Source: Candidatus Zixiibacteriota bacterium
GTDB lineage: Bacteria > Zixibacteria > MSB-5A5 > WJJR01
NCBI GenBank assembly: GCA_040752595.1
Contig: JBFMGX010000040.1
Location: forward strand, 1-64,000
Direction: 5' to 3'
DNA: 64,000 nt
The notes under the pieces were generated by a model. It was not told the DNA's origin and made no database searches. It saw nothing but the letters and a program-made list of their open reading frames with translations. The position numbers were made by a program, and so were the translations under genes. Below, piece by piece: positions 7,756-29,397 of this stretch (its first letter is position 1; each line of letters starts with the position of its first letter).

Positions 7756-10700
7756 TCACTCCGGTCGCGTCGCTTCGACGGCAGAATCGACTTCTGTCGC
7801 CTCGGGATCATTGGCGGCGATGGCGAAGCGCGGCTCGGCCAATCCCGGCTCGCCGCCGTCCTCGCCGGCGCGGTCGAGACGCACCGAGACGATCTTCGAG
7901 ATGCCCGGCTCTTCCATTGTGATACCATAGAGGACATCAGCGGCTTCCATGGTCAGCTTGTTGTGGGTTACGATGATGAATTGTGTCCGGACCTTGAAGC
8001 GGTCAACCAGACGCAGGAAGCGACCGCAGTTGGCATCATCCAGAGGCGCGTCGACTTCATCAAGGATGCAGAAGGGACTCGGCTTGACCAGATAGAGACC
8101 GAAGAGCAACGCCAGCGCCGTCAGAGCGCGTTCCCCGCCCGAAAGTTGCCGGATACCGACGAATTTCTTGCCACGGGGACGCGCAAAGATCTCGATCGGT
8201 GATTCCAACGGTCGCTCCGGCTCCAACAGCCGCACATCGGCCTCGCCGCCCCGGAACAGTTCGGTGAATACCTCCTGGAAATGAGCCCGAGCCGTCGCGA
8301 AAGTCTCGGCGAACCTCTCCCCGGCCGTTCGATTCAACTCCGCAATCGTTTCGGTCAGCGACGCCTTCGCCTGCCGCAAGTCTCCCACTTGATGCTCGAA
8401 GAAGCTCCAGCGTTCCTTCTCGCGTTGATACTCCTCGAGCGCCAGCGGATTGACCGGCCCCAGTCGCTCGATCGATTGGGCCAGCGACTCGGACTTGCGT
8501 TGCAACTCCTCGTCTGATTCCGGTGGGTCATCGATGGCGGCGGCTTCCAAGTCGATCTGATGCGCCTCCAGGATACGACGGCGGCATTGCTCGGCGCCCA
8601 AGCGCAGACCGGAGAGCTCCAACTCCATCTGTGCCCGTTGCGACTCGAGTTGTTCGCGTTGATGCCGGAATTCCCGCAGTCTCTGCTCAAGGTGCGACAG
8701 TCTTTCCTTTTCTGTGGCAACAAGCGTGCGGGCGTCGAGGCGTTCCCTGTCGAGCCGTTCCCGCTCGGCTCCCAGCGATTGTTGCTCGGAGACCGCCTCG
8801 ACAATCCGGCGATCCAACGCCGCGATCTCCTCGGTCATCAGCCGATCGCGGTCGCGGGTCGATTCCTCCTCGGCTGTGAGCTCGGCTGCCATGTCGCGAT
8901 ATCGCCGGATTTCCGTGGCGGCGGCATCGCGGCGTGCCTGCGCCTCCACGGTCTCGACCCGGATGGCATTCAGGGATGCCGCGGCGGCATGGGCCCGTTG
9001 CTCGGCGTCTGCGGCTTTGTCCTCCGCATTCTGCCGCTCAGCCGCCAGGCGATCGACTTCCTCCTTGAGCTTGGTCAGGGAGTCATCATCCATCGTCGCA
9101 CTGTCGCCGGACTCCTGGGTGATCACCTTCAGTTCTCCGGCCAATTCCTCCGTTTGGCGTCGATTTTCGTCCAGACGCGTCCGCTCACGCTCGTAGGCCA
9201 GCAGCCGCGCCGAGAGTTCTTTTTCCAACTCGGACACCCGCGAACGGTGCCGCGCGCAGGTCTCGCGCTCCTGCGACAGACGCGCATCCAAGTCTGTGAT
9301 GCGAACTCGGGCTGCTCCAAGCGCTCGTTCCGCCGATGCGAGTTCAGCATCCAGATCGCGAAGCCGCTCCGCGCGGCCAACAATAGGCTCGGCGCTCTCC
9401 ATTCCGGCCGAGACACTCCCCGGCGGTGCGATCAGCACGCCGTCGCGCGTCACCACACTGTGCCGGCCCGACAACGCCGTGAACAACCGCCGGGCGCTCT
9501 CCAGTGAGTCGGCCAACGCCACACCGCCGAAGATCCCCTCAATCCACGGCCGGTCAGGATCGTCACACTCGATCTGGTCCACCAACCACCCGACGAAGCC
9601 GGGATCGGTCACCGGAGGATGCGCCGTGCCTTGCGGCGACAGCAGCGCGGAATCCAGGACCGTGGCGCGTCCGAAGGATCCTTGCGACAAATGAGCGACG
9701 AGCGAGCGCGCGACCTCGGGATCCTCGCACCACAGGGCACCAACCTTATCGGCGAGCACCGCCTCGACGGCATGTCGCCACTCCGCTGCGGGTCTCAGCC
9801 GATCGATCCAGCCGACGACACGGCCGCACCAGCGCTCCGCATCCGACAGGATCCACGCCGCTCCCCGCCCCAGTCCTTCACCCCGCGCGATCACCGCCCC
9901 CAGCATATCCCGCCCGGATTGCAGGTGGGCCACCCGCTCGCCATGGCGATGCATCTCTTCGACGCTCTGGGTCCGAGCCGTCTCTTGCTCGGCCAACGCC
10001 GCTTCGGCGGTTGTGACTTCAGCGCGGGCCGCATCCAACCGAACCCGCACGTCGGAGAGCTCGGACTCCAGTTGCACCAGCTCCGTCGCGGCCTGTGAAA
10101 TCGACGACGACGACTGGTCCAGGCGCTGCTCCAGAACCCGGCGGCGTTGTTCGGCTTCCGCCCGATGCTGACTGGCAGCGTCACGCTGGGACGTCAAACG
10201 AACATGTCTCTCCTGAGTGACCTGCCACTCGAGACGGCGCCGCTCCACGTCGTTGGCCGATCGCTGCGCTTCCTGTTGGATAGACCGAAATTGTTCTTCG
10301 GCGGCCACGGCCCGTCGGACGATATCGTCGTAGGCGGCGCCCGTGTCCGTGTGCCGTCTGGTGGCCTCGGTGACGCGCCCTTCCGCCTCGATGGCACGCG
10401 CGCGGATCACATTCTGTCGCTCGGCAAGACGCTCGCGTTCCTCCTGCAAATGCCGTTTGTGGTCTTCGCGACGCAGTTGCTCCGTTTCGTGCGTGTGCCA
10501 GCGCCCCGTGACCTCGGCCAGCCGATCATTGACGGCTTGGGCGATCCGTTCCGCCTCATCGACCGCGAGATGGAGTTTCTGTCCCTCCAGGTCGAGGGCA
10601 TCGCACTGCGCCGCCGCCGCCAGCGCCTTTTCGCGCGCCGACATGTGCTCCCGCTCGCGGTCGGTTGCCTGCGCGCGCAACAGACGATACTCGCGCGATG

Positions 10701-16688: not shown

Positions 16689-18005
16689 TCACTTGCCCGG
16701 GAAGGACGGTGTGTCGGCGGCGCCCATCAGCGCCGACTCGACAATCGTCGGTGTCACGAAGATGACCAGATCGCGCGATTCGTTGCTCGTCTTCTTGTAG
16801 CGGAACAGGGCTCCCAGAAGCGGCACATCCTTCAGCACCGGGATCCCCGTTGTCGTCACGACTTCGTCCTGCGTCGTCAGGCCGCCGATGACCGCGGTCT
16901 GGCCGTTCTCGACCACCACGTTCGTCTCGGCGTTGTTCGTGTTGATGATCACGCCCGCCTCGGCAAAGAGGAAGTTTGAACGCTCCGGCTTCATGTAGAG
17001 GAGAATCCTGTTTTCGGACGTAATGTGCGGCGTGACGCGCAGGATCGTCCCCACTTCTTCGAACGTGATGACGACGTCGCCCGAGGCGGAAAATTGCTTG
17101 ATCGGCACTTTCTGGCCGACCTGAATCCTGGCTTCCTTGTTGTCGACCGTGGTGATCTCGGGATGGGCCACGACCTTCCCCTTGCCCGAAGAGACCAGGG
17201 CCGAGATCGTGGCATCGAGATTCCACCCATTGGGCATGAACGAGAATTTGTACTGCCCGTAGGGCGTCAACACGCGTTCGGCCCCGTCGGTCTTCAGCTC
17301 GTTGTGGTATTCGTACCCGCGCTTGTCCCGACCGTCACCTGTCCCACTCCAACTGATGCCCAGTTCGTCGACGAAATCGGAGGACACTTCCAGCAACTTG
17401 GCGGAAATCTTGACCTGGCGGGTCTCCCGATCCAGCTCGGCCACGAACTTCTCGATGCGCGTGAGGTTTCCCGGCTCATCGGAGACCAGAAGCGTGTTTG
17501 TGCGTTCATCGACGTCGACTTTGCCGCGTGTCGAGGTCAGCGACCTTAGCGGCTTGACCATGTCTTTGGCGTTCGCATTCTTGATGTTGAACAGTTGGGT
17601 CTCCAGGTCCACCAATTGCCGCTGCTCGGAATTGTGGCGCTCCAAATCCGCTTGATCCCTGAGGTAATCCGTGAGTTGCACGACGCGCAGGAACCCCTCC
17701 TCTTCCACAACCTTGAGATTGTAGGTACGGGCGAGGATCTCCAGCGCCTGGCGCCATTCGACGTTCTTCAGGTTGAGCGTGACTTGTCCCTGGACATTCG
17801 GGGCGGCAACCAGGTTGACGCCGCCGTATTCGGCCAGGAAGTTCAGCACCGAGCGCACGTCGGCATTCTGGAAATTGATGTTCTTGATCGGCTCGGAGCC
17901 CGGGGATGGGGTGGCGGTCACCAAGAGGCATACAAGACAGGCCAGCCACGCCGCCGTCCACGCCCCAAGTCTAAACCGGTGGTCTGTATCGAGTCGCATG
18001 CTCAT
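16689..18005 (-). CDS. pilQ: Type IV pilus secretin PilQ (short form)
   Basis: 438 residues. A signal peptide is followed by an STN domain (IKNINFQNADVRSVLNFLAEYGG, about 45-110), a secretin N1-type domain (LFNIKNANAKDMVKPLRSL) and the secretin pore domain at about 230-430 (VVAHPEITTVDNKEARIQVG; GIPVLKDVPLLGALFRYKK, the family signature). It forms the outer-membrane gate of the pilus. It lacks the N-terminal AMIN domains normally found in PilQ; one is in the upstream PilP-like gene instead. Start ATG 18005 follows a strong ribosome site (AGGAAGGGGAAGGG). It is last in the pilMNOPQ cluster. Confidence 0.93.
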   Translation of the reverse strand: MSMRLDTDHRFRLGAWTAAWLACLVCLLVTATPSPGSEPIKNINFQNADVRSVLNFLAEYGGVNLVAAPNVQGQVTLNLKNVEWRQALEILARTYNLKVVEEEGFLRVVQLTDYLRDQADLERHNSEQRQLVDLETQLFNIKNANAKDMVKPLRSLTSTRGKVDVDERTNTLLVSDEPGNLTRIEKFVAELDRETRQVKISAKLLEVSSDFVDELGISWSGTGDGRDKRGYEYHNELKTDGAERVLTPYGQYKFSFMPNGWNLDATISALVSSGKGKVVAHPEITTVDNKEARIQVGQKVPIKQFSASGDVVITFEEVGTILRVTPHITSENRILLYMKPERSNFLFAEAGVIINTNNAETNVVVENGQTAVIGGLTTQDEVVTTTGIPVLKDVPLLGALFRYKKTSNESRDLVIFVTPTIVESALMGAADTPSFPGK

Positions 18006-18021
18006 CCCTTCCCCTTCCTGT

Positions 18022-19686
18022 TCACTCCGGCAGTGTCGCCGGGACTGGCTCGGTGGTTTGCGTCGCCGCACCCAGAGACTTCGACGGATCGCTGCCGCGC
18101 GCGCTCAACTGCAACGCGACCGTGCGCGTGAATCCATACTCATCAACCGTAAAGAGGACGCGTTGATCGCCGACCGACAGCACGCGGCCATTGGCCACGG
18201 CATCGCCGGCCCGCATGATATAGCTGTGACCTTCCATGTCTTCCAGAAGCGCCATCGCCCCCTGTTCATCCCGCAGGACGCCGACCATCCGCAATGTCTC
18301 CACGCTGGGGAGATCGTCGGAGAGGAATCCCGAGCGCAGTCCCTTGAGAAGCGGCTCGAACGGGTCGCGGCGCCCCAAATCACTGTAGTAGATTTCCGCG
18401 CGTTCCGTACCGACCGCGGCAGAGACGACCGTCGTCGGGACGGCCGCTTGCTGACCGGCCAGCCGGATGCGCTCCAAGAGGGCCTCACGGTCGAGCGACC
18501 CGGCCGGCGTGGGCGGACCTTGTACCATTGGGTCGGTGGGAACGACGCCTTGCTCATCCGGCACGACATCTGCCGTCGTATAGGGACGCGGCGCTGGACC
18601 ATTCGAGAAGAACTTGGCTTTCAGACGATCCACCAATGACTCCGTGGCCGGCTGGCCGGCCTTGGGACCACCGGGCTCGGCGAGCGCTGGTTCTGTCGCG
18701 GGCCCTTCGACTGACGCCCAGACTTGGGGCTTGTCGTCTGTCTTCGGTGGATTCGTCTCCGGCACCGACGCGACCACACTTCCGGCCGCATCGGACTGGG
18801 CCGACATGGCCGGCGGTTCAGCCGAGATCGCGTCAAGATACTCCGGTGCCAAGACCAGCGGATGTGCAGGCAACTCGAACGGTGTGGTCTCTGTCGGAGC
18901 CATAGGAGCCGGCGGACCGTACACCAGAACGGCTCCCTCGCTGCTCGTAGACACCGGCGGGCTCGGTTGTACCGACACCTCTCCCGGGACGGGAATGAGG
19001 TAGGGATCCGCTACGTTCTCAGTGGTTGGTGGGGCCGTCGCAACGACGGTCGGTTCCGCGTCAACGGCGGGGGCCGGTGCCGGGACCGCTGCCCTTGTAC
19101 CGTCGCTCTCGGGGCGCATCGACCGCTCGCGTCGCGGCGAGGGCGGTGCCGTCTGCCTCTCGGTGGCGACGACCGAAGCAGCCATGGGCGCGGGTTCAGC
19201 GTGCTCGACCATCCGCGGGGCAGTCGTCGGGACCGCCTCCCACGATGCAAATGCAGATGCTCGAGGATCGGATATGACGACAGTCAGGGCATCGTCCCCG
19301 GTTCTCAGCGAGTAGGTGGCGGAACCGGCCAAATCGAGCACGACCCGGACGATCGGTTCCGGTTCCACAGCATATTGACTCGTGCGGATCTCCCGCACCA
19401 TGCACGCGGGCAATTGCCCGAAGTTCTTCTGTGGCAACGCGTGCTTGGCGCCACAGAAATTCAACACGATCCGGAACGGCCGGTCGGCTTCGGCGGGCTG
19501 GCTGAAATGGTCACACAGCATGCGCGCCGGCACGGGGACCGACAGTTCCGTGAAGTCACCGACGTGGCGCAAACTGAGGTTGCGCACGTCGGCGGCGTGA
19601 ACGGCACCCGTGGCGGCGAGCATGAGGACCGTGCAGGCCGTCGCGACCGCCGGGATCTTGCGAATCGGAGCATTCATGGCACTCAT
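18022..19686 (-). CDS. AMIN-domain and PilP-like fusion, type IV pilus assembly
   Basis: 554 residues. A signal peptide ends at about residue 32 (AVHAA). An AMIN domain follows at about 33-140 (VRNLSLRHVGDFTELSV, FRIVLNFCGAKHALP, VRVVLDLAG). The next 300 residues are Pro/Ala/Thr/Glu-rich and low in complexity. The end (about 445-535) is PilP-like: GRRDPFEPLLKG, LRMVGVLRDEQGAMALLEDM, YIMRAGDAVANGRVLSV. PilP links the PilNO inner-membrane complex to the secretin, and AMIN domains bind peptidoglycan. It overlaps pilO by 4 nt and is followed 16 bases later by pilQ. Confidence 0.85.
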   Translation of the reverse strand: MSAMNAPIRKIPAVATACTVLMLAATGAVHAADVRNLSLRHVGDFTELSVPVPARMLCDHFSQPAEADRPFRIVLNFCGAKHALPQKNFGQLPACMVREIRTSQYAVEPEPIVRVVLDLAGSATYSLRTGDDALTVVISDPRASAFASWEAVPTTAPRMVEHAEPAPMAASVVATERQTAPPSPRRERSMRPESDGTRAAVPAPAPAVDAEPTVVATAPPTTENVADPYLIPVPGEVSVQPSPPVSTSSEGAVLVYGPPAPMAPTETTPFELPAHPLVLAPEYLDAISAEPPAMSAQSDAAGSVVASVPETNPPKTDDKPQVWASVEGPATEPALAEPGGPKAGQPATESLVDRLKAKFFSNGPAPRPYTTADVVPDEQGVVPTDPMVQGPPTPAGSLDREALLERIRLAGQQAAVPTTVVSAAVGTERAEIYYSDLGRRDPFEPLLKGLRSGFLSDDLPSVETLRMVGVLRDEQGAMALLEDMEGHSYIMRAGDAVANGRVLSVGDQRVLFTVDEYGFTRTVALQLSARGSDPSKSLGAATQTTEPVPATLPE

Positions 19687-20309
19687 TCCTTTGTCGCTCC
19701 CTCGGTCGTCGGTTCATCCAGCAACACCAGGCGTTCCGATTCCTTGACGCGATAGGTGGAGATCAACATGGTCGCACTCACCGTGTATCCCCCCGTGGCC
19801 GCCTCCGGGTTGTCGCGGTCGGTCACCATCGACAGTTCCAACTCGCGTACGCCGACGATGAACGGCAAGTTGGAGATCCGAGAGACAAAATCCCCCAGAT
19901 CATGATAGGTCGAATGGACCAGGAGCTTGAAGCTCTGGCGATCGTAAAATCCCTCGGAGACGCCGGGAAGCGGTTCGATCGCGCCGACCCGGGATGACGT
20001 CTCCAAGGCGGCGGCGTGGATCTTGCTCAGCAGCGGTGATAGTTGATCATCCTCGGGAAGGAGCTGAGAGATCGTGCGATATCGCCGGGTCAAATCGGCG
20101 TATTCCGCCTTCAAGGTCTCGAGGGACCGGAACTTCATTTCCACATTCTTCAGCTCAGTTTCCAGCGCCTCCAACCGGGTGTAGCCGCCATCGATCTTCT
20201 CCTGATAGCCGCTGTAGACCTTGGCGTACCAGAAGTAGGCCACCACGAACCCGGCGAGAGCCGCCAAGAGCCATTTTTGTGTCTGAGGATTCCTCAGGTC
20301 CATAGCCAT
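19683..20309 (-). CDS. pilO: Type IV pilus inner-membrane protein PilO
   Basis: 208 residues. There is one membrane helix at about 13-30 (WLLAALAGFVVAYFWYAKVY), a coiled coil to about residue 85 (ELKNVEMKFRSLETLKAEYADL) and then a ferredoxin-like domain (FKLLVHSTYHDLGDFVSRISNLPFIV is the region at about 125-150). This is the PilO layout. It partners PilN under PilM and overlaps the next gene by 4 nt. The start is set by GTG/ATG at 20309, 27 bases after pilN. Confidence 0.92.
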   Translation of the reverse strand: MAMDLRNPQTQKWLLAALAGFVVAYFWYAKVYSGYQEKIDGGYTRLEALETELKNVEMKFRSLETLKAEYADLTRRYRTISQLLPEDDQLSPLLSKIHAAALETSSRVGAIEPLPGVSEGFYDRQSFKLLVHSTYHDLGDFVSRISNLPFIVGVRELELSMVTDRDNPEAATGGYTVSATMLISTYRVKESERLVLLDEPTTEGATKE

Positions 20310-20336: not shown

Positions 20337-21080
20337 CTACGGGGCGACCTCCCCGGTGTGCTCTTCGTCACGATTCGAGATCGGCTCACTCACGTCTTCT
20401 GCGGGCAACTCGCTCAGCTTCGTCGGCGTTCCCTGATCACCGACTCCTTCCGGTGAATGATCCACCGGCTCCAGGCTGCAGACGGCGGCGAACTGATACA
20501 CCCGTCGCCCCTGCACATCAGTGAATTGGGCGCGCCGCAATCCCACGTGACTGAAGCGCGGCGAGTCCTGCATGTTCAGGATCATATTCGCCAGACTGCT
20601 GATCGAGTAGCAGTACCCTTCCAGCACGTAGTCGTTGCGGACCGGCGCGGCCGACGAGTCCACCGCCGCGCCCTTGCCCTTGGTATCCGGTTTGGCCTTC
20701 ATCTCATCGCGGCGGAAGGAGGTGAGCCACAGATAGTCGGGGATGACGGCGGCAACGTCCTCGAGGTTGCGCACCCAGTCCCCCCGGTCGCGGTCGAGCA
20801 GCTCGATCGCTTCGAGCCGCCTCATAATACTGGACTTGACCGTCGTCAGGCGGTCGACCACGGCGATGTCGTCGCGCATGCCATCGGCGCGTTCCCTGGC
20901 ACGTTCAATCGCGGCATTCACGCGGGCATATCGCCAGGTCTGCATCAACGTCAGACCGATCAGCGCCCCCCCGAAAATCGCCGCCACGCCCACGCCGATC
21001 AGCGCCGCGCGCGGCAGCGCCAGGGCGCCGGTTCTACGCCGCATCTCCCGCGGCAACAGGTTGATCTCGATCATTGCCAT
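20337..21080 (-). CDS. pilN: Type IV pilus assembly protein PilN
   Basis: 247 residues. It begins MAMIEINLLPREMRRR, the conserved INLLP motif by which the PilN tail binds PilM. A membrane helix lies at about 28-48 and a coiled coil follows (VNAAIERARERADGMRDDI). The periplasmic domain contains LTSFRRDE and the extra segment KAKPDTKGKGAAVDSSAAP, which is probably disordered. The C-terminal 35 residues are acidic. It lies 6 bases after pilM. Confidence 0.92.
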   Translation of the reverse strand: MAMIEINLLPREMRRRTGALALPRAALIGVGVAAIFGGALIGLTLMQTWRYARVNAAIERARERADGMRDDIAVVDRLTTVKSSIMRRLEAIELLDRDRGDWVRNLEDVAAVIPDYLWLTSFRRDEMKAKPDTKGKGAAVDSSAAPVRNDYVLEGYCYSISSLANMILNMQDSPRFSHVGLRRAQFTDVQGRRVYQFAAVCSLEPVDHSPEGVGDQGTPTKLSELPAEDVSEPISNRDEEHTGEVAP

Positions 21081-21086
21081 AGTCTG

Positions 21087-22142
21087 TCAGACCTCACGCG
21101 ACGCCAGCCCCACGCCCACGGCCAACAGCGGCGCGATCTTCTCCGGATCAATGCCGCCGAATAACTCCGGATCGTATTCGATGTTCCGTAGAGGATTGGC
21201 GATTTCAATCGGCACGTTCAGCTTCGACTGCACGCACTCGGGCAGAAACGGGATCAGCGCCCCGCCGCCGGAGAGGACAATCCAATCGACGGAGTCGGTC
21301 TTGGCCAGTGTGCGGAAGTACGAGAACGCCACTTCCAGACCCGTGAGCAGTTCCGCCGCCGCCGAACGGACGGTCGCCCGCAGCATGTCCTGATCGACCG
21401 ACGTTTCCAGTTCCCCTTTGAGGACCTTCAACGCCAGTTCCTGATTGAGGCGGAACTCGCGCTGGATGACCTCGTAGAGCATGCGCCCGCCGGCGGACAC
21501 GTCGCGGGTGGAGTGATACGCCCCGTCCTTCAGGAAGATCACGTTGGTCGTGTCGAAGCCGATGTTCACCAACGCGGTGACGCGCTCCGGATCGATATCG
21601 TAGTTGATGACATAGGAATTCAGGACGGCGAACGCGTCGGTGTCGACCAGACTCACCTTCAATCCGGCGTCCTCGACCAGGTGGAGGTACTCCGAGAGGA
21701 ACTCCCGTCGCGCGGCGACCAGGAGGACTTCCATCTTGCCCCGGTCGGGATCGGTGCGGAGGATGTGATAGTCCATCGACACGTCGTCGACATCGAACGG
21801 GCTGCGCTGATCGGCTTCGAGCAGAATCGTCTCCTCGGCCTCGCTGCCGGTCCGGTGATCGACCTCGAACTTGTCGGTGATCACGCCATGCCCGGCGATG
21901 GAGACCGCCACGTCGGTCGTGCGGGGATCACACTGGTCGATGAGGCCCTGGATGTTGAGGATGATGGCGTCACGATCCTTGATCTCGTGAGACACCATGG
22001 CCTCCGTGGGCATCTCGCGGATTCCCGCCGCCGACAGCGAATAGCCGTCGGCGTGTCGGTCGAGCCGCACGAATTTGAGCGCGTTGGCGCCAATGTCGAG
22101 GGCCGCCACCGACTTGGCACGGCGCCGGAATGGCAGTTGCAT
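21087..22142 (-). CDS. pilM: Type IV pilus ATPase-fold protein PilM
   Basis: 351 residues of actin/FtsA fold. Phosphate 1 motif: VAALDIGANALKFVRLD. Second phosphate-binding segment: ALVNIGFDTTNVIFLKDG. Adenosine motif: WIVLSGGGALIPFLPECV. PilM is a cytoplasmic ring protein that binds the PilN N-terminus. It is probably the first gene of the pilMNO-P-Q transcript; a 236-base gap separates it from the response regulator. Confidence 0.95.
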   Translation of the reverse strand: MQLPFRRRAKSVAALDIGANALKFVRLDRHADGYSLSAAGIREMPTEAMVSHEIKDRDAIILNIQGLIDQCDPRTTDVAVSIAGHGVITDKFEVDHRTGSEAEETILLEADQRSPFDVDDVSMDYHILRTDPDRGKMEVLLVAARREFLSEYLHLVEDAGLKVSLVDTDAFAVLNSYVINYDIDPERVTALVNIGFDTTNVIFLKDGAYHSTRDVSAGGRMLYEVIQREFRLNQELALKVLKGELETSVDQDMLRATVRSAAAELLTGLEVAFSYFRTLAKTDSVDWIVLSGGGALIPFLPECVQSKLNVPIEIANPLRNIEYDPELFGGIDPEKIAPLLAVGVGLASREV

Positions 22143-22378
22143 CAGAGTTCCGCCTCCATAGAAACCGCGGCCAGCGGCCGCTTCGCGTCATGATCCGTTC
22201 ATCGGTGCGAGTCGGCGGGCGCTGTCGCCAACGCTTGCCCTTTCCCGCCAAGTCCGCGACTGTCTCTAACTGCATCGGCTGTGTGCCGTGTGTGTTTTAG
22301 GGGTTTTTTTGCCCACCCAGCCCAGTGCGGGATCTGTCCCACACTCATGTCATCTTACGGCACAATCGAACCAGGCGG

Positions 22379-23851
22379 TCAGACATCATCGGGGCGCAAC
22401 GCGCCGACCTGCCGACCCGTCAATTCCAAGGCGCGCTTCATGCGCTCCCGCAAGGTGTTGCGCGAGATCCCCAGAAGTTGCGCGGCGCGCACCTGATTCT
22501 GGTCGGTTGCTTTCAGCGCGGTTTCGACCAACACCTCCTCCAGCGCCGCTGTCATCCCCGCATAGACCTGCCCCGGTGCGGCCGCCGCCACTTGCGCGAA
22601 GACCGGGTCCACGACACGCGCGAAAAGATCGCGGTACTCCCGATGCGCCTCCGACATGTCCAGCGTGGCGCACACCGGCACATCGTCCAAGCTGGGAAAG
22701 TCATCACCCATGAGCTCCGATTCGCGCGACAGGACGACCGCCATGTGAATGGTGTTCTCCAACTCACGGACGTTTCCGGGCCAATGGTGGTGCAGGAGTT
22801 TCTCATAGGCCGCCGCCGACAGGGGCCTGGGGTCGCGATGCTCCAGGTGGGAGTACTTCCTGATGAAGTAGTCGCTCAGAAGCCGGACGTCCGCTTTGCG
22901 TTCGCGCAGCGGCGGCAAAAACAGAGATACGACTTTCAACTTGTAGAAGAGGTCCACGCGGAAGCGCCCCTCCTTCATCGCATCCACCAGACTGCGACTC
23001 GAGGCGGCGATGATACGAACATCGAGGGCGATGAAGCCGCCGCCGCCCGGCTGTTCGCAGCGTCCCTCCTCCAAGACACGGAAGAGGCGGCTCTGGACCA
23101 AAGGCGACAGATCGGCGACCTCATCCAAGAAGACCGTGCCCCCGTCGGCCAACTCCAGCTTGCCGCGGCCCGTGGCCGGGGAGCGCACGCTGTTGTCGAG
23201 CGGCTCGCCGAACAACTCGTACTCGAGGTGCGAGGGCGACGTGGCGTTGCAGCTCACGGAGAAGAAGGGACCATCGGCACGGGACGAGTTCCGGTGAATG
23301 GCGCGTGCCACCAGTTCCTTGCCGGTCCCCGTCTCCCCCAGAAGCAGAACCGGGGCATCACTCTCTGCGATCTGACCAATCAGCTTCGCCACAGCCACGA
23401 TTTCGGGGGACTTTCCGAGAATCTGATCCTTGGCCAACGGCACGTCGTCATCCGCCCTCGGAGAAACAGGACTGGTGTTGCCGATGGCCCGGTTGAGGAT
23501 CTGCTCCAAGTGGGCCAGGCGGAACGGCTTGGCCAGGTATTCGAATGCCTTTTCCTTCATCGCCTCGATCGCGTTGTCGGTGGACACGTACCCCGACACG
23601 ATGATCACCGGAGTATCGGGCCGGTCGGCCTTGATCTGTCGCAGCAGCTCCAAGCCGGACATTGAGGGGAGATGGACGTCCAGGATGATGGCATCGGGAC
23701 GGGAGGCACGAACCGCTGGCATGACATCGGCACCGTCGCCGACAACGTCGATCTGATAGCGTTCCGGAGACAGATAGTTGCTAACTGCCTGTGCGATTTC
23801 GGGATCATCGTCCACCAGGACGATCTTGAGACGACGTTCGCTCACGCGCAT
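22379..23851 (-). CDS. NtrC-like response regulator with degenerate GAFTGA loop
   Basis: 490 residues. The receiver domain (about 8-120) has the acidic pocket DDD, phospho-acceptor Asp in DAIILDVHLP and the K of LAKPF. The AAA+ domain (about 145-370) has Walker A GETGTGKE and Walker B VFLDEV. A C-terminal Fis-type HTH is intact (QVRAAQLLGISRNTLRERMK). In the sigma-54 contact loop, where family members read ELFGHEKGAFTGA, this protein reads ELFGEPLDNSVRSPATGRG. The loop has the same length but lacks GAFTGA. It lies upstream of pilM, so pilus control is likely, but perhaps not through sigma-54. Confidence 0.88.
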   Translation of the reverse strand: MRVSERRLKIVLVDDDPEIAQAVSNYLSPERYQIDVVGDGADVMPAVRASRPDAIILDVHLPSMSGLELLRQIKADRPDTPVIIVSGYVSTDNAIEAMKEKAFEYLAKPFRLAHLEQILNRAIGNTSPVSPRADDDVPLAKDQILGKSPEIVAVAKLIGQIAESDAPVLLLGETGTGKELVARAIHRNSSRADGPFFSVSCNATSPSHLEYELFGEPLDNSVRSPATGRGKLELADGGTVFLDEVADLSPLVQSRLFRVLEEGRCEQPGGGGFIALDVRIIAASSRSLVDAMKEGRFRVDLFYKLKVVSLFLPPLRERKADVRLLSDYFIRKYSHLEHRDPRPLSAAAYEKLLHHHWPGNVRELENTIHMAVVLSRESELMGDDFPSLDDVPVCATLDMSEAHREYRDLFARVVDPVFAQVAAAAPGQVYAGMTAALEEVLVETALKATDQNQVRAAQLLGISRNTLRERMKRALELTGRQVGALRPDDV

Positions 23852-27981: not shown

Positions 27982-29397
27982 ATGAAGACGGCGAACGGTA
28001 CCAGACCCACGGCCCAGCGCATCCTGGTCGTCGACGACGAGCACTCGTTGTGTGAGATGATGCGGATCATGCTCACCAAGGAGGGGTACGACGTCGATAC
28101 CGAGCTGAGCGGCCGAAAGGCGATCGAACGCCTGTCCGGAAGACACTACGACCTGGTCATTGCCGATCTGAAGATGCCCGAGATGTCAGGACTGGAGTTG
28201 TTGGACCGCGCCCGCGAGAAGGAGAATGACCTCCCGGTGATCGTCATGACCGCCTTCGCCTCGGTCGACACGGCCATCGAGGCCCTCAAAAAGGGCGCCT
28301 CCGATTACATCACGAAGCCGTTCAAGATCGACGAAATCAAGCTGGCGATCCGTCAGACGCTCGAAACATCAGACCTCAAGCGAGAGAATCAGGCACTCAA
28401 GGCCCGTCTGGAGGAGTCGCTGTCCTTTGAGCGGCTTCTCGGGACTGACCCCCGTATCGATGAGGTCAAGAGAGTCGCCGCCCAAGCGGCGGTCTCCGAC
28501 ACCACGATCCTGATCCGGGGTGAAAGCGGCACCGGCAAGGATCTGCTCTCCCAAGCCATTCACCAGCATTCGCCCCGGCATGACCGCCCCTACATCACCG
28601 TCAACTGTGCCGCTCTGCCGGAAACGCTCCTGGAAAGTGAGTTGTTCGGCCACATCAAGGGATCATTCACCGGCGCGATCCGCGACCACGAGGGTCTGTT
28701 CCGCGCCGCCGAAGGGGGCACGCTCTTCCTGGACGAAATCGCCGAGATCACGCCGGCGATCCAAGTGAAGCTGTTGCGCGTGCTCGAAGACAAGAAGGTC
28801 ACGCCGATCGGCGCCACCTCGGGGCGCACCGTCGATGTGCGGCTGATTGCCGCCACCAATGCCGACCTCGAAGCGGCGGTCGCCACGCGCCGGTTTCGTG
28901 CCGACCTGTACTACCGGCTCAATGTCATCCAGATTCACCTCCCCCCGCTCCGGGAGCGGGCCGATGACATTGAAATCCTGAGCCGTCATTTCATCGAGGC
29001 AAGCTGCACGCGGGCCGGTTGTGCGGCGAAGCACTTAAGCCGCGCCGCGCTGGAGCTACTGAAGAAGTACCCCTGGCCGGGAAACGTGCGCGAGTTGCAG
29101 AATGTCATTGAACGCGCCGTCGTGTTGTCCGATGATGCCACGCTCGATGTCGGTGACTTCCCGGCCCGGCTGGCACAGCCGTTGGATGTCGCCTCAGTCG
29201 GTGAGACAACACACGCCTCGCCGACGCTTGAGTCGATCGAGAAGGCATATATCTATTGGGTGTTGAACCAAACGGAATGGCAGAAGGCCCGCGCGGCGCA
29301 GATTCTCGGCATCGATTCGTCGACTCTCTACCGCAAGATCAACAAGTACAAGTTCACGGTTCCCCGCCCGAATGGGCCGGGCGAGGGGTCGGCGTAG
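27982..29397 (+). CDS. Sigma-54-dependent response regulator, PilR/NtrC type
   Basis: 471 residues. The receiver has DDE, phospho-acceptor in DLVIADLKMPEMSG and ITKPF. The AAA+ domain has Walker A GESGTGKD, a nearly canonical sigma-54 loop (GHIKGSFTGA), Walker B LFLDEIAEI and the sensor region LPPLRERADDI. A Fis-type HTH (KARAAQILGIDSSTLYRKINKYKF) closes it. Unlike the regulator at 22379-23851 it should activate sigma-54 promoters. No histidine kinase is adjacent. It is divergent from the subtilase, and its last 44 bases overlap the end of the convergent MFS gene. Confidence 0.93.
   Translation: MKTANGTRPTAQRILVVDDEHSLCEMMRIMLTKEGYDVDTELSGRKAIERLSGRHYDLVIADLKMPEMSGLELLDRAREKENDLPVIVMTAFASVDTAIEALKKGASDYITKPFKIDEIKLAIRQTLETSDLKRENQALKARLEESLSFERLLGTDPRIDEVKRVAAQAAVSDTTILIRGESGTGKDLLSQAIHQHSPRHDRPYITVNCAALPETLLESELFGHIKGSFTGAIRDHEGLFRAAEGGTLFLDEIAEITPAIQVKLLRVLEDKKVTPIGATSGRTVDVRLIAATNADLEAAVATRRFRADLYYRLNVIQIHLPPLRERADDIEILSRHFIEASCTRAGCAAKHLSRAALELLKKYPWPGNVRELQNVIERAVVLSDDATLDVGDFPARLAQPLDVASVGETTHASPTLESIEKAYIYWVLNQTEWQKARAAQILGIDSSTLYRKINKYKFTVPRPNGPGEGSA

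Follow-up and report, generated by a model that had tools for sequence, protein, structure and literature searches.

The response regulator gene that lies next to the pilus genes in this stretch raises a simple question: can an NtrC-type protein that has lost GAFTGA, its sigma-54 contact, still work as a sigma-54 activator, and if not, what does it do? The window, i.e. the whole stretch of 64,000 nucleotides that was analyzed, belongs to a Candidatus Zixiibacteriota genome of 2.94 Mb in 50 contigs (G000). The gene product combines a receiver domain (REC), a Sigma54_activat AAA+ domain, an AAA lid and a Fis-type helix-turn-helix (HTH), all scoring over the Pfam cut-offs, and by these domains and its fold it is an NtrC-type response regulator. 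Annotation pipelines would label it a sigma-54 regulator, a label that is probably wrong. The segment following ELFG, which forms the L1 loop, reads EPLDNSVRSPATGRG; the GAFTGA of sigma-54 activators is absent, placing the protein among the NtrC relatives in which this motif is lost or defective. A preliminary description made from the sequence had already stated that the NtrC fold is kept without GAFTGA, with Walker A (GETGTGKE), Walker B (VFLDEV), the phospho-acceptor Asp and the HTH intact. All these elements were found again, the Asp being D58, as were the open reading frame, its strand, its coordinates and its domains.

Coordinates of the regulator, its mapped residues and the neighbouring features in the window
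Feature	Positions	Strand	Basis
NtrC-type response regulator without GAFTGA, 490 aa	22379..23851	(-)	sequence, Pfam, ortholog set, tree
Phospho-acceptor Asp58 codon, conserved	23678..23680	(-)	residue mapping
Walker A GETGTGKE, conserved	23315..23338	(-)	residue mapping
Ser200, at the PspF switch Asn N64 position	23252..23254	(-)	residue mapping
Degenerate L1 loop, residues 216-230, EPLDNSVRSPATGRG (HEKGAFTGA... in relatives)	23162..23206	(-)	sequence, alignment, pLDDT
Walker B LDEV (within VFLDEV), conserved	23117..23128	(-)	residue mapping
Ser284-Ser285, at the sensor-I Thr-Asn position	22997..23002	(-)	residue mapping
Lys304, at the PspF R168 position, RxDxxxR trans motif	22940..22942	(-)	residue mapping
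Fis-type HTH, conserved	22433..22543	(-)	Pfam, alignment, constraint
Palindrome TGGGACAGATCCCGC, candidate operator (putative role)	22327..22341	(-)	conserved in G000, G001, G002, G004
Sigma-28-type promoter-like element CTAAA-N16-GCCGAT before pilM	22274..22300	(-)	motif; 7/7 f1 genomes
pilM	21087..22142	(-)	Pfam PilM_2
pilN	20337..21080	(-)	Pfam
pilO	19683..20309	(-)	Pfam
AMIN domain / PilP-like, PilP match under cut-off	18022..19686	(-)	Pfam
pilQ secretin	16689..18071	(-)	Pfam
Second NtrC-type regulator, GSFTGA (comparison only, outside the system)	27982..29397	(+)	sequence, Pfam

None of the NCBIfam equivalogs NtrC, AtoC, NtrX and PEP_resp_reg scored over its curated cut-off (the best was ntrC, 372.3 vs 558.6), and the nearest named relative was a protein from a Candidatus Zixiibacteriota MAG (70% identity). 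The AlphaFold model was confident for the AAA+ core and gave pLDDT values below 50 for residues 220-226. Its fold matches were NtrX, NtrC1, NtrC4, LuxO, FleQ and VpsR (7v2b), with whole-chain TM scores that are low because domain placement is uncertain in the model. The AAA+ domain itself superimposed on the NtrC1/NtrC4, ZraR and PspF structures with an rmsd of about 2-3 Å. Fold and motif order are shared with these last proteins, all of which have GAFTGA and a full catalytic set.

Among 133 genomes of the class, 99 contained a match to the regulator at E <= 1e-110, and 81 orthologs were aligned. None of the seven members of the family to which the window belongs (f1, G000 to G006) has GAFTGA in this regulator; the two genomes representing the sister family (f2, G007 and G008) do. 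The f1 loops are unlike from genus to genus: besides the window sequence, they read QSGQPVAGAPRSKRG in G002, HGPGGAGSGQGARVG in G003, GIGGSERGRPGRAG in G004, TFADGRTVRG in G001 and HERG[AV]IPSQPRKTG in G005 and G006. The 74 orthologs outside f1 have GAFTGA (67), GSFTGA (4), GAFTNA (2) or GASASA (1), so that one of the first three motifs is found in 73/74 (71/72 without f2). In the maximum-likelihood tree, f1 formed one clade (support 100/100) on a stem branch of 0.57, with f2 as its sister (100/99). Since f1 is a single clade with f2 beside it, one loss of GAFTGA on the f1 stem would be the simplest history. The change had been described as a gapless substitution, which is true of the window copy; its relatives have indels, the G001 loop being five residues shorter than that of G000. 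Likewise, orthologs with a normal GAFTGA do exist outside f1, as had been envisaged, but the window copy is not the only one to lack it. Several deviations were seen in other families. The GASASA of G023 is an independent departure from GAFTGA, in a protein that retains R168 and the switch Asn, and family f5 (G026, G011) has GAFTNA in the same regulator. Two orthologs (G107:C65:5566-7020 and G062:C153:24852-26282) each contain one in-frame TAA, due to assembly error or marking a pseudogene.

Selection on the gene was estimated from Nei-Gojobori counts. In the close pair G005/G006, omega was 0.012 for the receiver and 0.018 for the AAA+ domain without L1. Between diverged f1 members, where dS exceeds 1 and omega is therefore rough, REC and AAA+ gave 0.11-0.24. 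Nonsynonymous differences per site in L1, which spans just 11-16 codons, reached 0.49-0.70 in diverged f1 pairs vs 0.14 in the f2 pair. An open reading frame was found in all seven f1 genomes. These sequence comparisons indicate that the L1 loop is changing at a nearly neutral rate, with the receiver, the AAA+ core and the HTH under strong purifying selection. A loop conserved in a DNSVRS-like form, which the preliminary description had proposed to look for, was not found among the orthologs: L1 varies between genera and is the fastest-evolving part. Because the gene is maintained while its loop drifts, neither decay nor a new conserved partner of the loop is favoured. The earlier view that the protein underwent functional change rather than decay agrees with omega values of 0.01-0.24 in REC and AAA+.

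Residues of the ATPase were mapped onto PspF positions across the orthologs; within f1 we distinguish a crown group (G000, G001, G002 and G004) from basal members (G003, G005 and G006). All of f1 has conserved the two Walker motifs (A and B), R162, D164, sensor II, the HTH and, in the receiver, Asp/Ser/Lys (the G003 contig is without the start of the receiver), and the basal members also retain the R168, sensor-I and switch Asn equivalents. In the crown, taken in the order above, the residue at the R168 position is K, M, K and K, and the sensor-I Thr-Asn pair has become S-S, S-N, S-S and T-S. The switch Asn (N64) is replaced by Ser in three of the four (G000, G001 and G004) and kept in G002 and the basal members. 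Outside f1, R and N occupy the R168 and N64 positions in 74/74 orthologs, and sensor I has T in 73/74 and N in 72/74. The R122 equivalent was lost in G003 and G002. The catalytic set of G000 is therefore incomplete: Walker A/B, R162, D164 and sensor II are present, the N64, sensor-I and R168 equivalents are not, and the loss extends beyond the loop noted earlier to S200, S284-S285 and K304. In PspF, the ATPase activity of 39.5 per min falls with N64Q to 1.5 per min and with R168K to 0.12 per min, and R168K gives no productive remodelling of sigma-54 (PMC3419264). By analogy with these PspF variants, little or no ATPase activity is predicted for the crown proteins.

Sigma-54 itself is present in G000, and rpoN is retained in 9/9 genomes of the order. 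Ten other G000 regulators with a readable loop carry GAFTGA or near variants, and the second regulator of the window has GSFTGA at the same place, as stated previously. The claim that the loss is specific to the pilus-linked gene is supported by this retention of rpoN and of other GAFTGA-type regulators in the genome. Two other G000 regulators, on contigs C4 and C5, read GSFTSA and GAFTSA in L1.

In the window, the regulator is directly followed on the same strand by the pilM, pilN, pilO, AMIN/PilP-like and secretin genes. The order regulator, pilMNO, secretin, on one strand and with a gap of 209-360 bp, recurs in G000-G005 and in 2/2 f2 genomes; the G006 contig ends before the pilM position. 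Whether the gene always lies next to pilM had been proposed as a check; it does in the six f1 genomes with enough contig and in f2, but not elsewhere in the class, where pilM was not found beside the regulator outside the order of f1 and f2. Upstream of the regulator, G000, G001, G002 and G005 have an S8-peptidase-type gene (by Pfam in G000, by likeness in the others). In f2, the upstream genes encode a membrane protein, a PrsK-like kinase (TIGR02916, 288.6, just below the cut-off of 300) and PrsR (TIGR02915, 528.5 vs a cut-off of 502.6). The kinase and PrsR form a possible cognate pair, missing upstream of the regulator in G000. The protein does not qualify as a PilR, which would have GAFTGA and a paired PilS-type kinase: GAFTGA is lacking and the immediate upstream neighbour is the S8 peptidase, although a kinase encoded elsewhere in the genome may exist.

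The sigma-28-like element found before pilM throughout f1 lies 144-164 bp upstream of this gene where measured. A weaker version precedes pilM in f2, and related elements occur before pilM in some families without an adjacent regulator. As f2 has an intact GAFTGA, the element was not created by loop loss. Sigma-28-like elements were detected in 18/28 pilM upstream regions of the class (4.9 expected from shuffles), and flagellin genes of the same genomes have CTAAAG-N15/16-G[CT]CGAT-like elements (17/25 vs 5.3 expected). Genome-wide, TAAA-N15-17-GCCGAT has four matches in G000, one of them in the pilM gap, and the reversed control has none. A strict sigma-28 pattern was not enriched over seven genomes (17 matches vs 24 for the reversed control) and was rejected as a regulon marker; the case for sigma-28 is thus made by the conserved placement of the element ahead of pilM. 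With TIGR02479 scores over the cut-off, FliA is encoded in 29/29 genomes, eight of them without detected flagellin, including G001 and G004. In flagellin-less G004, around 9714-10557, fliA lies near a csrA-like gene and, by eye, no flagellar gene was recognised nearby. Judged by its motif, the promoter of pilM resembles the sigma-28 type and not that of housekeeping sigma-70, and in this class the flagellar sigma factor may have a role in type IV pili. The earlier idea of a sigma-70-acting regulator pointed in the right direction but not to the sigma factor suggested here.

In the regulator-pilM gap of f1 and f2, the search for a -24/-12 element yielded just GG-N10-GC matches of low quality, which were not conserved. 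When the surroundings of all 81 orthologs were scanned with a strict -24/-12 pattern, no match was found, in GAFTGA-bearing lineages as well, and so the scan does not separate the groups. A TGGGAC-N3-YCCC palindrome is located 34-50 bp upstream of TAAA in the four crown genomes and is absent from basal G003 and G005. It is rare (2-8 matches per genome, many in coding sequence); compared with single-genome shuffles, it is marginal in G001/G002 and not significant in G000/G004. As no clear regulon emerged, it was rejected as a genome-wide regulon marker.

Altogether, we consider it reasonably likely that the protein is a former sigma-54 activator that has become a sigma-54-independent, phosphorylation-controlled DNA-binding response regulator, probably acting on the pil operon. 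Its ancestor would have been an ordinary sigma-54 activator whose contact with sigma-54 disappeared a single time, on the f1 stem; key ATPase residues would then have gone in the crown lineage, with purifying selection on the regulator persisting. Most likely, the protein would bind DNA in dimeric or oligomeric form and, independently of sigma-54 in the cell, aid or hinder an RNA polymerase that carries another sigma factor, much like the GAFTGA-less NtrC proteins of Rhodobacter capsulatus and Caulobacter or VpsR. The prime candidate for its target would be the adjacent pilMNOPQ operon, a link drawn from adjacency, with its sigma-28 (FliA)-type promoter and the palindrome as candidate site. 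As hypotheses, pilM as target is better supported than a FliA-type holoenzyme, and the latter better than activation. The full scenario, in which a sigma-54 activator was rewired within f1 into a phosphorylation-controlled regulator of a FliA-type pil promoter, losing the loop first and having its ATPase dismantled later, is proposed tentatively.

A sigma-54-independent repressor of pil or other genes, similar to TyrR, is the rather unlikely but credible counterpart of an activator. The DNA-binding oligomer left after loss of remodelling would suffice to repress; repression is known for TyrR and, at some sigma-70 promoters, for Caulobacter NtrC (PMC3162934, PMC10274813). However, the palindrome, a putative site, does not overlap the promoter: it lies further upstream, about 65 bp before the inferred start and, in G001, about 80 bp before it. 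The preliminary description had also suggested that the regulator could remodel some other partner belonging to the pil operon; the AAA+ ring would do this through a new loop. Walker A/B are conserved in all f1 and the basal members keep a nearly full catalytic set, but a loop that evolves faster than the rest and varies by genus behaves contrary to a new contact surface, and the crown is without R168 and sensor I and, in most members, without the switch Asn. We regard such repurposing as improbable.

Activation of sigma-54 promoters through the altered loop appears still less probable, despite the conserved Walker A/B, R162, D164 and sensor II and the presence of rpoN. The loop shows no conservation, has become shorter in G001 and was modelled with low confidence, the central residues of GAFTGA are essential (PMC3162934), and PspF with the R168K change found in the crown cannot remodel sigma-54 productively (PMC3419264). 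Decay towards a pseudogene could be read into the lost catalytic positions and the long stem branch, but it is hardly credible given the open reading frame throughout f1, the very low G005/G006 omega in REC and AAA+ and the conserved REC and HTH.

NtrC relatives without GAFTGA have so far been known mainly as single, isolated proteins, and the seven genomes studied here order the events: the loop was lost and the regulator kept, then the switch Asn, sensor I and R168 were lost, with sigma-54 still present. With the f1 series and the intact f2, one can test which AAA+ ring parts still matter once the sigma-54 contact is gone. If pilM does have a FliA-type promoter, the flagellar sigma factor would be connected with pilus assembly in this class, genomes without detected flagellin included. 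A literature search on Zixibacteria and type IV pili found nothing relevant.

PilR is the NtrC-type response regulator of type IV pili and activates the pilin gene through sigma-54. In the present protein, by contrast, the sigma-54 contact is lost, and its gene sits at pilM with no kinase gene adjoining. Among regulators with a defective motif, TyrR and DhaR are not response regulators, and neither these two nor HupR is known to be pilus-linked, unlike the regulator described here. All three are sigma-70-dependent homologues, and GAFTGA loss as such is already documented in around 110 deviants (PMC3162934). The NtrC proteins of Rhodobacter capsulatus and Caulobacter, together with VpsR of Vibrio cholerae, have been reported at sigma-70 promoters (PMC10274813). 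Both NtrC proteins resemble the f1 regulator in their REC-AAA+-Fis HTH architecture, lost L1 loop and conserved phospho-Asp (PMC10274813). However, their loop is deleted and they control nitrogen genes, whereas here the loop is replaced and drifting and the gene is pilus-linked. Moreover, Caulobacter NtrC needs its Walker A and B residues, whereas the crown members are without R168 and sensor I. VpsR, whose structure matches our model, is likewise bEBP-like without GAFTGA and reportedly does not need ATP (PMC10274813). VpsR binds c-di-GMP (PDB title), controls polysaccharide production and does not require phosphorylation. As far as our searches show, what is new in f1 is a family-wide series with an intact sister and stepwise ATPase erosion, a link to pili and a sigma-28-like promoter.
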